From positions 62,001-126,000 of the forward strand of contig JAOAEQ010000003.1 in NCBI GenBank assembly GCA_026416715.1: a stretch of 64,000 bases of DNA, read 5' to 3'. Positions 37,963 through 42,982 of this stretch are shown one piece after another. Below the pieces are notes generated by a model, which ran no database searches, was not told where the DNA came from, and worked only from the letters and a program-made list of their open reading frames with translations. Within the stretch, counting starts at the first letter, position 1, and every line of letters starts with the position of its first letter. Position numbers and translations under genes: made by a program. The DNA is from a bacterium (GTDB lineage Bacteria > UBP4 > UBA4092 > JAOAEQ01).

Positions 37963-38044
37963 ATCCGTAGTTACTCTATCACGGCATAGGTATCCGTCAG
38001 AAGTTAAGTTATACTTAAATATTTCAAAAAATATTAAATAATAC

Positions 38045-38073
38045 TTGACAAACATCTTTTTGTGGTGTATACT
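38045..38073 (+). promoter_or_regulatory. Near-consensus sigma-70 promoter of the XRE-cupin operon
   Basis: TTGACA (38045-38050) and TATACT (38068-38073) lie exactly 17 bases apart, 24 bases before the regulator's ATG. Just upstream is AATATTTCAAAAAATATT, a seven-base inverted repeat with a four-base spacer, suitable as an operator for autoregulation. Confidence 0.75.
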
Positions 38074-38096
38074 ATTTGGTGAAAGGTAGAAATACA

Positions 38097-38648
38097 ATGA
38101 AACTAGTTGGAGTTAATATAAAGCGATATCGGGAAGAGCGGCAAATCACTTTACGCGATTTAGCGAGCAAATTGAACGTCAGCGCAAGTTTCTTATCACA
38201 GGTTGAAACCGGAAAAGCATCGCCGTCATTATCAACCTTAAAGAACATTGCCGATGCGTTACACACCACGGTAGGGAGTTTAATCGGTGAAACAGAACCT
38301 ACGGCGACCCAACCAGTCGTTCGTGAGAAGGAACGCAAATCGCTCAAACAGTTAGGGAAAGGGATTAAATTATATTTATTAACTTCACCGGATCCGAATA
38401 AACAGATGGAACCGTTATTGTTTAAACTGGATAAAGAGGCTAATTCCGGAGAAGCGTCATATCGCCATTTTGGTCAAGAGTTTGTTTTGGTTTTGAAAGG
38501 AACATTGGAAATCACACTCAATGAGAGCAAGTATATTTTGAAAAAAGGAGATAGTATTTATTTTAATTCCAGTATTCCGCATCTGTTTCGAAATGTCTCT
38601 AAAGGGACTACTGAAGCACTATGGGTGGTAACCCCACCAACTTTTTAA
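38097..38648 (+). CDS. XRE-family transcriptional regulator with C-terminal cupin domain
   Basis: Regulator of 183 residues. An N-terminal helix-turn-helix of the Cro/CI type (about 1-65, TLRDLASKLNVSASFLSQVE) and a C-terminal cupin barrel (about 90-183) are present. The cupin motif is incomplete: HFGQEFVLVLKGTLEI fits motif 1, and IPHLFRN supplies the last His. The cupin should sense a small molecule or metal. The ATG at 38097 with AAAGG upstream is preferred over a TTG at 38076 that overlaps the promoter -10. It precedes the M20-like gene by 96 bases and is the likely controller of the operon and of itself. Confidence 0.88.
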   Translation: MKLVGVNIKRYREERQITLRDLASKLNVSASFLSQVETGKASPSLSTLKNIADALHTTVGSLIGETEPTATQPVVREKERKSLKQLGKGIKLYLLTSPDPNKQMEPLLFKLDKEANSGEASYRHFGQEFVLVLKGTLEITLNESKYILKKGDSIYFNSSIPHLFRNVSKGTTEALWVVTPPTF

Positions 38649-38744
38649 GTGCAGTAAACTGCTCTATTTTTTTATACGCTATGTTAATTATTACTTAATA
38701 TAGTTAATTTATATAAAACTAACTAGTAATGGGAGGTAACAGGT

Positions 38745-39983
38745 ATGTATAACATTCTAAAAACCAAACTAACCGGATTACAAAATCCCATGCAGGATTT
38801 TTCCGGTCGATTATCTGAGTTTAATCTTGATGAAAGGAACATGACTGAATTTATTACTTTGATCTCGCAAGAGATGAAAAAGTTAGACTTTGATGAAGTG
38901 GTTCAAGACCATGCCGGCAATATTATCGGTATCATTAATGGTTATGACGCTCAGGAAGATTTAATTCTGATATCCCATATGGATTTTTCTGTGTTCTCTG
39001 GATTACAATCGTTCAGGTCATACCAACCAGAACTGGATATGCTGACTTTTAAAGCCGGAATAATTTCATCGATATACGCCGGGGGATTAATGAAGCGGGT
39101 GTTAATGCCATTGAAGGGGAATCTAATCGTTTGCTGTGTTCCCCGAAGTGAAAGTTGCGGAATAGGTATCAAATATCTATTCGATAATTTCTTACGGGAA
39201 CGACGCAAACATATTCAGGGAGTCATTCTTTGTGAGCCAACTGACTTTAATATCAATCTTGGTCATAAAGGAAAAATGGAGTATGAGATTGTGGTGAAAG
39301 GGAAAATTGGGAAAGATGAATTTTTCGAACAACGGGGAATAAATATGCTCGGGACTATGTTTCCGTTAATCAACGAATTAGAGAAATATTCACAAACGTT
39401 ACCTCGCGATTTTACATTAGGTCCATCGAGTTTACGGATTAAAGATGTTAGCTATAGCGGTTACGGTAGTCCGTATCAGCCATTGGAAGATTTACGAGAA
39501 TGTCGGGTGGTCGTTGATCGCACCTATGTTCCGGAAGAAAGAGAGGAAACGATTTTAAATAAAGCCAAATCGATTGCGAAAAGTGTTTATCGAGAAAAAC
39601 CGGAAGTAATAGTTGACACTGCGGTGGCAACGCGCAGAGTTAAAACCCTAGCTGGAACAGAAGTTATTGCTGAAAAAGAATATAAACCATGGAGAATGGA
39701 AGAACATCATCCATTTGTTCTCTCTTCGTTAGGAGTACTGAGAGAAAACGGATTTAATGCTACACTTGGATACTGGAAAAAAATTATTACCGAAGGTTCA
39801 TATACTTGTGGTGAATTACAGATACCAACTATTGGTTTTGGCGCTGGTTCGGAAGAGATGCTAACTGTCGGCAAACCTATGATATCGATCGATGATTTAG
39901 CTAAATCAGTATATGGACAAACCCTGATAATTCACCGGAATCTTGGTATGCCAACGTTTGGGTGGTGCGAAGATGAAATCTAA
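38745..39983 (+). CDS. M20-family peptidase/deacylase-like protein with altered metal site
   Basis: Protein of 412 residues with the M20 (ArgE/DapE/YgeY-type) layout. Visible family features are ISHMDF (the first His-x-Asp metal pair), PRSESCG in place of the usual acidic pair, and LCEPTDFNINLGHKG (the EPT ligand and GHKG). The bridging aspartate normally found in GRGxxDxKGG is replaced in KAGIISSIYAGG, and the final metal-binding His is not seen in GAGSEEMLTVGKP. It may therefore bind one metal, act differently, or be a pseudoenzyme. GGGAGGT precedes the ATG, and its 3' end overlaps the acetate-kinase-like gene by 11 bases. Confidence 0.75.
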   Translation: MYNILKTKLTGLQNPMQDFSGRLSEFNLDERNMTEFITLISQEMKKLDFDEVVQDHAGNIIGIINGYDAQEDLILISHMDFSVFSGLQSFRSYQPELDMLTFKAGIISSIYAGGLMKRVLMPLKGNLIVCCVPRSESCGIGIKYLFDNFLRERRKHIQGVILCEPTDFNINLGHKGKMEYEIVVKGKIGKDEFFEQRGINMLGTMFPLINELEKYSQTLPRDFTLGPSSLRIKDVSYSGYGSPYQPLEDLRECRVVVDRTYVPEEREETILNKAKSIAKSVYREKPEVIVDTAVATRRVKTLAGTEVIAEKEYKPWRMEEHHPFVLSSLGVLRENGFNATLGYWKKIITEGSYTCGELQIPTIGFGAGSEEMLTVGKPMISIDDLAKSVYGQTLIIHRNLGMPTFGWCEDEI

Positions 39984-41205
39984 TGCTACTCCAATTAACA
40001 TTCTAGTACTGAACTGCGGAAGTTCATCGCTAAAATATAAAATTATTCGGATGCCGGAAGAACAGGAATTGGTTTCAGGTGAAGCGGAACGGGTTGGAAT
40101 AAAAACACAAGATACCCCGATGATAACCCATTATGTTTTCGGCCAAAAACGGGTGGTTAAAACTGAAATTCCGAATCATACCGTAGCGTTCCGAAAAGCG
40201 TTATCACTGATTAAAGAAGACCATAAAACCCATAAATCGGTTACGTTCGATATCTTTGCCCATCGATATGTTCATCCGGGAACGTGGTTTTCAAAAACAA
40301 CAAAAATCACTAATGCCAGACTCGAACGGTTGCGAGAAACATTGCAATTAGCGCCGTTACATAATCCGATATCATTTGCGTTGGTCGAACTTTGCACACA
40401 AGAGTATCCGGAAATTCCGCAATATGTGGTGTTCGATACCGCGTTTCATTCAACGATTCCAAAGGAATTGTATAGCTATGCGTTACCCATGAAACTGGTA
40501 AAAAAATATGGGCTAAGAAAAATAGGGTTCCATGGTATCTCACATCAGTATGTAAGTAGGGAAGCTTGCCGATATCTAAATCGAGATTATAGAACTCAAC
40601 GGATTATTAGTTGTCATTTAGGTACGGGTGGTTCCAGTGTATGCGCGATAGATTGTGGGAAATCAATCAACAATTCGATGGGATTTACTCCGTTAGAAGG
40701 ATTAATGATGAACACCCGTTCCGGGGATTTAGATTTAGGGTTGCTCTTTTATATTATGTTTAAAGAAAATATCTCGCCTGAAGATACCGAGACAATTTTA
40801 AATAAAAAAAGTGGAGTCCTTGGCATATTTAAGAATTCATCGGATTTACGCGATGTGATTAAAAGTATTAATAACGATTATAAAGCCAAAATGGCGTTTA
40901 ATATGTACGTCCGCCGGGTAAAAAAATATATATGTTACTATATACTCTTATTAAGAAAAGCAGATATTATTTTGTTTACTGATTCAATCGGAGTTGGAGT
41001 CCCGTTGATTCGAGAAGAGATTTGCCAAGGATTGGATTTCTTTGGAATCAAGTTGGATAAATTCAAAAATGCAAATTATACTAATGGAATACAAGATATT
41101 TCAACCTTAGATTCAGAAACCCGAATTCTGGTACTACCGACCGATGAAGAAATTATGATTGCGCGAGAGGCATATAAGGAGTTTAACCATGATAATCGTT
41201 ATTGA
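39973..41205 (+). CDS. Divergent acetate/butyrate-kinase family protein
   Basis: Acetokinase-superfamily protein of 410 residues. Most catalytic positions of acetate kinase are visible: Asn in LNCGSSS, Arg in AHRYVHPG, His in LAPLHNP, Asp in FDTAFHST, His in IGFHGISH, Arg in MNTRSGD and a C-terminal Glu in PTDEEIMIAREA. It differs in the nucleotide-binding GIGEN loop, which reads SIGVG, and in NNSMG instead of DTSMG. It should phosphorylate a carboxylate or run in reverse from an acyl phosphate; acetate itself is unproven. The ATG at 39973 overlaps the M20-like stop, and its own end overlaps the next gene by 17 bases. Confidence 0.82.
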   Translation: MKSNATPINILVLNCGSSSLKYKIIRMPEEQELVSGEAERVGIKTQDTPMITHYVFGQKRVVKTEIPNHTVAFRKALSLIKEDHKTHKSVTFDIFAHRYVHPGTWFSKTTKITNARLERLRETLQLAPLHNPISFALVELCTQEYPEIPQYVVFDTAFHSTIPKELYSYALPMKLVKKYGLRKIGFHGISHQYVSREACRYLNRDYRTQRIISCHLGTGGSSVCAIDCGKSINNSMGFTPLEGLMMNTRSGDLDLGLLFYIMFKENISPEDTETILNKKSGVLGIFKNSSDLRDVIKSINNDYKAKMAFNMYVRRVKKYICYYILLLRKADIILFTDSIGVGVPLIREEICQGLDFFGIKLDKFKNANYTNGIQDISTLDSETRILVLPTDEEIMIAREAYKEFNHDNRY

Positions 41206-42268
41206 ACCGACATTACGTGAAATTACATTTTGGGGTTTTACGAAAGGTAAAACTGGTAAGACCGAAAATACTTGTTTACTTAAAAAAACAGATGAGGTTC
41301 GTGATATTATCGGTTTAAAAACAGTAATAGATACTATATTAAACCAGGAGAAACTAGAAGCGATTGCATTCCATATTTATTTCGGTGCTGACCTATTCGA
41401 TCAGGCAGTTTTTGTCGACCGAACTTTTTTCGATAAATTCCGATCGTTGGTTAAATTTTTCCCTTTTTATATTCCGTTCATTGAAGATTTACTCCGGTCG
41501 GTATATGAGAAATATACTACTGTTCCGATACTAGCATTTTTCGAGACAGCATTTTTTACTGATTTGCCAGAAGAAGAGAAATATTATGCGATTCCCTATG
41601 AGTATTTCCAGAACACTAATATCAAACGTTGGGGATACCACGGCATCTATCATAAGTTCAATGCTCAGATATCAAAATCAGACAACCGAATTATTTCAAT
41701 CGTTTTTGATAAGCAGACTACCGTTTGTCCTATATACCAAAATCGACCATTAGCGATTAGTCTGGGATATACACCTTTGGAAGGGATAATGAGCCGAACC
41801 AGTTGCGGTGATATAGATCCAGGGATAGTGTTCTACCTTATGAAACAATATAACTATTCGATATTCCAAATCGATGAAATCCTAAAAAGAGATAGCGGGT
41901 TCTATGGACTTACGGGCTACGATTTGAGTATGGAAGAGTATTTCAAATTATATGGGAAAGATGAAAAACTTAAACTCGCGTTTGATATCTACGAAAACCA
42001 AATCTTAAAATATATCGGAGAAGGAATTTCGGTTCTCGGTGGAGTAGATATATTGGTTTTTTCTGGTGGTTTGATCAGATATGCACAATCACTCATATTG
42101 CATCTGCTCGAAAAGATAAGATTTTTAGGGATTAATCTCAAAGAATTACCGTGGAAGAATAAAACCAACATAATGTCTATCACTTCTCCAGATTCGAAAA
42201 TTGGAGTATATCTCAATTTAGAGAATCTTGCACAAATTATCTATGATGAAGCAGTAAAATTACTTTAG
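41189..42268 (+). CDS. Degenerate acetate-kinase-like paralogue, probable pseudoenzyme
   Basis: Protein of 359 residues aligned by eye to the gene before it through KRWGYHGIYHK, SLGYTPLEGIMSRTSCGDIDPG and VLGGVDILVFSGG. Several catalytic residues are gone: the LNCGSSS start is replaced by IEPTLREI, HRxVHxG by FHIYFG, LAPLHNP by FFPFYIP, Asp148-type FDTAFH by FETAFF, and the C-terminal NEE motif is absent. One His and the RTSCGD Arg remain. It most likely pairs with the intact homologue as a structural or regulatory subunit. AAGGAG precedes the ATG at 41189, and the long intact frame indicates that it is maintained. Confidence 0.78.
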   Translation: MIIVIEPTLREITFWGFTKGKTGKTENTCLLKKTDEVRDIIGLKTVIDTILNQEKLEAIAFHIYFGADLFDQAVFVDRTFFDKFRSLVKFFPFYIPFIEDLLRSVYEKYTTVPILAFFETAFFTDLPEEEKYYAIPYEYFQNTNIKRWGYHGIYHKFNAQISKSDNRIISIVFDKQTTVCPIYQNRPLAISLGYTPLEGIMSRTSCGDIDPGIVFYLMKQYNYSIFQIDEILKRDSGFYGLTGYDLSMEEYFKLYGKDEKLKLAFDIYENQILKYIGEGISVLGGVDILVFSGGLIRYAQSLILHLLEKIRFLGINLKELPWKNKTNIMSITSPDSKIGVYLNLENLAQIIYDEAVKLL

Positions 42269-42505: not shown

Positions 42506-42982
42506 ATGCCGAAGGTTTTGATTATTTACTATTCCCGCAGTGGAAATACTGAAAAGTTGGCGAAGTATATCGAAGATGGCATTAAATCTGAAGGAGTTGA
42601 GGTTATCTGTAAGAAAGTTCAGGATGTTAGTGTTAAAGAATTATTGGATTATGAGGGAATTGTAATCGGTTCACCGGTATACTATGGAACGATGGCAGCG
42701 GAAATTAAGAAACTCCTCGATGATAGTGTTCAGTTCCATGGAAAACTGGATGGGAAAGTCGGTGCCGCATTTTCTACTTCAGCGAATATCGCTGGCGGAA
42801 ATGAAACAACGATACTTGATATTCTTGCGGCAATGCTGATTCACGGAATGATAATTCAAGGCGACCCGAAAGGAGACCATTACGGCTCTGTTGCTATCGG
42901 TAAACCCGATGACCGCGCGAAAGATAACGCTATTCGCCAAGGGAAACGAATCGCGAAATTGGTTAAAAGAATCAGCGGATAA
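42506..42982 (+). CDS. Flavodoxin-family (WrbA-like) FMN protein
   Basis: Single flavodoxin-fold protein of 158 residues. The FMN phosphate loop is YYSRSGNTEKLAKYI at the N terminus, followed by GSPVYYGTMAAEIK in the second FMN loop and a FSTSANIAGGNETT segment in the third, which match the NAD(P)H:quinone oxidoreductase/WrbA group. It likely carries electrons or reduces quinones by two electrons in the cytoplasm. AAAGGAGGT precedes the ATG. It has its own promoter and so is probably separate from the kinase-like operon upstream. Confidence 0.9.
   Translation: MPKVLIIYYSRSGNTEKLAKYIEDGIKSEGVEVICKKVQDVSVKELLDYEGIVIGSPVYYGTMAAEIKKLLDDSVQFHGKLDGKVGAAFSTSANIAGGNETTILDILAAMLIHGMIIQGDPKGDHYGSVAIGKPDDRAKDNAIRQGKRIAKLVKRISG

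Follow-up and report, generated by a model that had tools for sequence, protein, structure and literature searches.

What is made by a bacterial operon that joins an XRE-cupin regulator, an M20-fold protein and two acetokinase-fold proteins? The question is raised by a locus in the stretch of 64,000 nucleotides that we analysed as a whole (the window), the features of which are collected in Table 1. The open reading frames, the promoter and the overlaps described in an initial annotation of this DNA are all present where it placed them, the M20-like frame overlapping the next one by 11 bases and the two acetokinase frames overlapping by 17. In what follows, acetokinase-fold proteins are abbreviated AK, the trio is M20–AK1–AK2 and residues are numbered as in MtACK. 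A search of the literature for this gene combination found nothing relevant.

Table 1. Features of the trio locus (positions in the window)
Feature	Position	Strand	Basis or remark
Perfect palindrome TTAAGT-TAT-ACTTAA	38004..38018		probable operator of the XRE-cupin regulator
Second, degenerate operator-like copy, over the -35 box	38034..38048		2 mismatches
Sigma70-type promoter TTGACA-17-TATACT	38045..38073	+	11/12 matches, joint best of 23 hits in the region
XRE-cupin regulator	38097..38648	+	PuuR-like architecture; ATG start 38097
Operator-like copy (TTAATTATTACTTAA) before the trio	38684..38698		1 mismatch
M20-fold pseudohydrolase, partner of the kinase pair	38745..39983	+	Pfam/NCBIfam, alignment, AlphaFold2, Foldseek
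Codons of the conserved C-terminal tail PTFGWCEDEI	39951..39980	+	mostly predicted disordered
AK1, acetate kinase of pyrophosphate (Entamoeba) type	39973..41205	+	residues, PDB match, trees
AK1 extended PHOSPHATE2 loop CHLGTGGSS	40612..40638	+	extra Gly, N211 -> T; compare PMC5517563
AK1 ADENOSINE motif FTDSIGVG	40975..40998	+	A330 -> D, G331 -> S; compare PMC5517563
AK2, acetokinase-fold pseudokinase	41189..42268	+	lost catalytic residues, tree

The genome that carries the window encodes four acetokinase genes, namely an ordinary ackA (on C11), a divergent gene (on C40), AK1 and AK2, together with a membrane pyrophosphatase and pta. The C40 gene (L058:4325-5539) looks degenerate, with FKTV replacing HRVV at R91 and FEPSFH replacing FDTAFH at D148 in the alignment, and adjoins a gene resembling AMP-forming acyl-CoA ligases. 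Just downstream of the trio and on the same strand lies a WrbA/flavodoxin-like gene (42506-42982), which is not a recurrent trio neighbour.

In other genomes, the succession M20–AK1–AK2 was met again at about 30 loci outside the window's phylum, and about ten phyla are represented in all; the records found by the scan carry the labels Verrucomicrobia, Lentisphaerae, Planctomycetes, Omnitrophota, Auribacterota, Myxococcales, Bacteroidetes, KSB1, Deltaproteobacteria and Proteobacteria. These loci were collected by a search with the M20-like protein, which led to genome G229 and its full-length relative followed by two AK genes, and then by scans of the phylum of G229 and of a species collection with AK2. 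After removal of duplicates there were 36 AK1–AK2 loci: 31 with an M20 gene, three with a FolE2-like gene and two others, one of which (L110) starts at AK1 at a contig end while the other (L107) has no M20 gene next door. The adjacency on which the initial annotation had made its proposal depend is kept across phyla. The gene beside the trio is mostly a sigma54 activator; apart from the regulator, we found no recurrent further neighbours. Of 386 genomes sampled across the domain, four contained the AK1-loop pattern, and in one of these it was a chance match in another gene; the system is accordingly uncommon and scattered in its distribution. In the second of the two compared genomes of the window's own phylum there was no AK2 match, the M20 match was just an ordinary relative and the trio was not seen. 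Distances of AK1, AK2 and M20 correlate (r 0.80-0.85), as expected of a co-inherited unit, although such a correlation also arises from shared operon ancestry.

Some individual loci have features of their own. The genes beside the G229 trio (L056:896-6687) resemble an indolepyruvate:ferredoxin oxidoreductase, two phenylacetate-CoA ligases and two ACT-domain proteins, a set that gives a hint of aromatic amino-acid metabolism. Two genes similar to POT-type peptide transporters lie upstream, on the other strand, of the AK1–AK2 pair without an adjoining M20 gene (L107:2992-7818), and in L122 (2727-6278) the three trio genes share one reading frame, with TAA codons alone between them.

The window AK1 matches the Pfam Acetate_kinase family with 386 bits, and N7, S12, R91, D148, H180, H208, R241 and E384 are retained in 36/36 AK1 proteins. 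The nucleotide site is altered just as uniformly: N211 is replaced by Ser or Thr, A330 by Asp and G331 by Thr, Ser or Asp, and N335 is changed, again in all 36. In the comparison set, which consisted of 21 ordinary acetate kinases and MtACK, N211 is departed from in one of the 21 ordinary enzymes, position 330 is Gly or Ala in every one of them and neither D330 nor a changed G331 occurs. All AK1 proteins, including that of the window, also have an extra Gly in the PHOSPHATE2 loop. The combination of this Gly with the Asp of the ADENOSINE motif has been reported only for Entamoeba and for four acetate kinases of Anaerolineaceae (Dang and Ingram-Smith, PMC5517563).

The phylogeny agrees with these marks. 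In a 95-row tree, in which the window proteins sit on long branches, AK1 and the Entamoeba histolytica enzyme (EhACK) form one group (100/97), with EhACK as the sister of the AK1 proteins from the three loci where AK1–AK2 are followed by a FolE2-like pseudoenzyme and M20 is missing (L093:6127-9192, L094:7076-10141 and L179:6793-9815; 100/99). With both motifs masked, EhACK still joins this FolE2-type AK1 (100/97) and all AK1 separate from the ordinary kinases (100/99); the grouping is therefore not an artefact of those motifs, and AK1 and EhACK share a common descent. The best PDB match of FolE2-type AK1 is likewise EhACK (4H0O), and no other bacterial proteins found here stand nearer to the pyrophosphate acetate kinase of Entamoeba. 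Orthology of the gene starting at 39973 to the housekeeping ackA, which the initial annotation had named as counting against its proposal, was rejected: the genome has its own ackA on C11, AK1 falls in another clade, and the window AK1 has Ser and Thr in place of the conserved G331 and N211.

We therefore strongly predict from these residues and this descent that AK1 uses PPi. In MtACK, blocking of the adenosine pocket alone does not produce a PPi enzyme (PMC5517563), and changes at N211 and G331 lower the rates, that at G331 also shifting the choice of NTP, with no use of PPi (PMC4390882, PMC5517563). Since MtACK is not switched by altering the pocket alone, we offer this use of PPi as a prediction and not as a result.

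The window AK2 scores 173 bits against Pfam Acetate_kinase. It carries N7 -> E, R91 -> H, D148 -> E, H208 -> V, R241 -> S and E384 -> L, and in the AK2 clade as a whole N7, H208, R241 and E384 are mostly lost. The AK2 proteins form one clade with a single label change on the tree (100/99) and are pseudokinases kept beside AK1 across phyla.

The M20-like protein of the window exceeds the Pfam cut-off for M20_dimer (25.1 bits; cut-off 21) and stays under that for Peptidase_M20 (19.7; cut-off 24.6), and its nearest NCBIfam family is YgeY (143.5 against a cut-off of 321). Its M20 fold is evident from the AlphaFold2 model (pTM 0.82), the best Foldseek matches of which are all M20-type hydrolases. 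The bridging Asp, the general-base Glu and the C-terminal His are replaced by Thr, Ser and Thr, respectively, whereas in the other aligned trio M20 proteins seven of the eight metal and base positions are kept in 25/25 and the remaining one in 24/25 (a Glu -> Gly change). YgeY, or a working hydrolase, was rejected for the window copy on the YgeY score and the lost metal and base residues, and the hydrolase expected by the initial annotation is not borne out. Its idea of a regulated unit concerned with acyl phosphate, some members of which are pseudoenzymes, is supported, as AK2 is without catalytic residues and the window M20 without metal and general-base residues. The three FolE2-like partners, too, are devoid of the conserved Cys and His of the FolE2 metal site.

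These two unrelated folds end in a similar way. A C-terminal motif, G[WYH]…[DEN]-hydrophobic, is found in 31/31 M20 and 3/3 FolE2-like partners (VPVFGWTSDEI, MPTFGWCEDEI in the window and VPFSGYESNEI are examples), and is absent from all 29 YgeY-like and all 25 ordinary FolE2 proteins compared. The pattern was composed after the sequences had been viewed. A stricter version of it, which 32 of the 34 partners match, ends only partner genes or their second copies among the 1,224 ORFs of the loci. In the isolated model of the window M20-like protein, residues 405-412 have pLDDT below 50 and the tail is predicted to be mostly disordered, as a docking tail would be. A single AlphaFold2 run on the natural-frame M20–AK1 read-through of L122 (pTM 0.52), a one-chain model that covered the partner and AK1, gave no confident interface and a disordered tail. 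Conservation of the tail as a by-product of the overlap with the AK1 start was ruled out: elsewhere the M20–AK1 gap ranges from -11 to more than 100 bases, and the FolE2-like gene is the last in its operon.

The window regulator has HTH_3 (49.8 bits) and Cupin_2 (61 bits) domains and scores 67 bits against NCBIfam PuuR, under the cut-off of 211, which places it outside that family. The palindrome before it is the sole copy without mismatches in the 64 kb, and copies with at most two mismatches number 10 against 5.75 expected. The idea that a small molecule sensed by the cupin acts as the inducer gains indirect backing in so far as the palindrome is common to the fronts of the regulator and of the trio. 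In 24 M20-type loci, the trio is instead divergent from an activator of the XylR_N-V4R-sigma54 type, and the best -24/-12-like site between the two averages 9.2/11 as opposed to 7.1 in shuffled sequence. These activators keep the zinc ligands of DmpR/CapR in 25/25, Trp128 in 24/25 and the phenol-positioning His100 in 18/25 (compare PMC7264223). The retention of these residues points to a phenol-like inducer for the M20-type trios.

The reading that we prefer, with a probability of about 0.55, is that the trio specifies a carboxylate-kinase complex that works without nucleotides (PPi/Pi), with a catalytic AK1, a non-catalytic AK2 and a partner docked by its tail. AK1 would interconvert a carboxylate and PPi with an acyl phosphate and Pi, as the Entamoeba acetate kinase does, and AK2, its dead homologue, would stand in for the second protomer found in ordinary acetate-kinase dimers. 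The membrane pyrophosphatase and pta of the genome are in line with this reading. The metal-hydrolase-fold partner, M20 in most cases and FolE2-like in some lineages, would be held by the C-terminal tail; the intact M20 of most lineages may release or present the acid, and that of the window may have turned into a non-catalytic scaffold or ligand-binding subunit. There, the XRE-cupin regulator, acting on the shared palindromes, would replace the sigma54 activator.

The same observations can be read in other ways. AK1 could be a nucleotide-dependent acyl kinase with a shifted preference for NTP or acid, and the trio an ordinary catabolic unit for an acid released from an amide. The full set of acyl-phosphate catalytic residues fits this, as does the behaviour of the MtACK variants at N211 and G331, which are slowed and do not turn to PPi (PMC4390882, PMC5517563), but the presence of both PPi-type marks in 36/36 and the place of EhACK in the clade when the motifs are masked make it unlikely, if still worth keeping in view. 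That the complex is no enzyme but senses acyl phosphate or PPi, or has a regulatory role tied to them, is suggested by the fact that two of the three window members are pseudoenzymes, that AK2 is dead everywhere and that the FolE2-like partner has also lost its metal-site Cys and His. A pure sensor, however, would have no need of AK1 catalytic residues invariant in 36/36, nor of M20 residues that are nearly so outside the window, and we regard this possibility as improbable.

We would give very little credence to two further proposals. AK1 might phosphorylate the C-terminal carboxylate of its partner's tail, yielding a C-terminal acyl phosphate; carboxylates are indeed the target of acetate kinase chemistry, and one acidic-hydrophobic C-terminus is found on two unrelated folds in these operons only. 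Nevertheless, the last residue of the tail varies (I, L, V or F), its spacing shifts by one or two residues and no docking on AK1 was predicted; we know of no precedent for such a reaction. Equally far-fetched would be a lineage-specific operon that is decaying and functionless in the genome of the window. The great divergence of its AK2 and M20 from related proteins and the missing M20 site would agree with this, and yet the three long overlapping frames are intact, the AK1 catalytic residues and the partner tail are kept, and there are dedicated operator-like palindromes. The PPi-dependent carboxylate-kinase complex remains our preferred explanation.

The pyrophosphate acetate kinase of Entamoeba has hitherto been an isolated oddity, with only four bacterial look-alikes, from sequenced species, named (PMC5517563). 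Here this enzyme type turns up across about ten phyla of bacteria, at each examined locus next to a catalytically dead twin, so that a type supposedly near-restricted to amoebae may be a bacterial system of wide distribution that has gone undescribed. The amoebal enzyme thereby acquires a probable origin, and bacterial proteins can be offered for work on PPi use, pseudokinase pairing and tail docking; one C-terminal tail on two unrelated folds would constitute a new recruitment signal.

Comparison with known systems brings out what is particular to the trio. The activator beside M20-type trios has the same architecture as the phenol-sensing XylR_N/V4R activators DmpR, CapR and MopR, and is absent from the window locus, where the XRE-cupin regulator stands instead. 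To our knowledge, the operon that this activator would control resembles no known phenol pathway. YgeY-type M20 hydrolases are the nearest named relatives of the M20-like partner, which differs from them in its C-terminal tail and altered lid and, in the window, in its missing metal and base residues. The alternative partner has the fold of FolE2 (GTP cyclohydrolase IB) but is distinguished by the tail and the missing conserved Cys and His. Housekeeping AckA (MtACK, 1G99; Thermotoga maritima, 2IIR) shares with AK1 the fold and the acyl-phosphate catalytic residues, and differs at N211, A/G330 and G331 and in having no second, dead paralogue in its operon. The putative acetate kinases of the Anaerolineaceae Ornatilinea, Longilinea, Flexilinea and Leptolinea (PMC5517563) have the extra Gly and the Asp, as AK1 does, and another Asp at the position of Gln323, as in FolE2-type AK1. 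EhACK itself belongs to the AK1 clade and has the extended PHOSPHATE2 loop with the second Gly, Thr for N211 and Asp at A330; it has a bulky Gln-Met pair closing the adenosine pocket where the window AK1 has Ser-Ile, G331 being replaced and I332 kept in AK1, a difference that speaks against the preferred reading. As far as we know, EhACK is a single, self-standing enzyme with which no AK2 or tailed partner has been described. We suggest, tentatively, that the trio may be a bacterial enzyme system without a described counterpart, in which a PPi-driven carboxylate kinase functions only in a heteromer, together with its own pseudokinase and an exchangeable partner of metal-hydrolase fold recruited by the shared tail; EhACK would then have branched off from the catalytic subunit of this system as an enzyme that stands alone.
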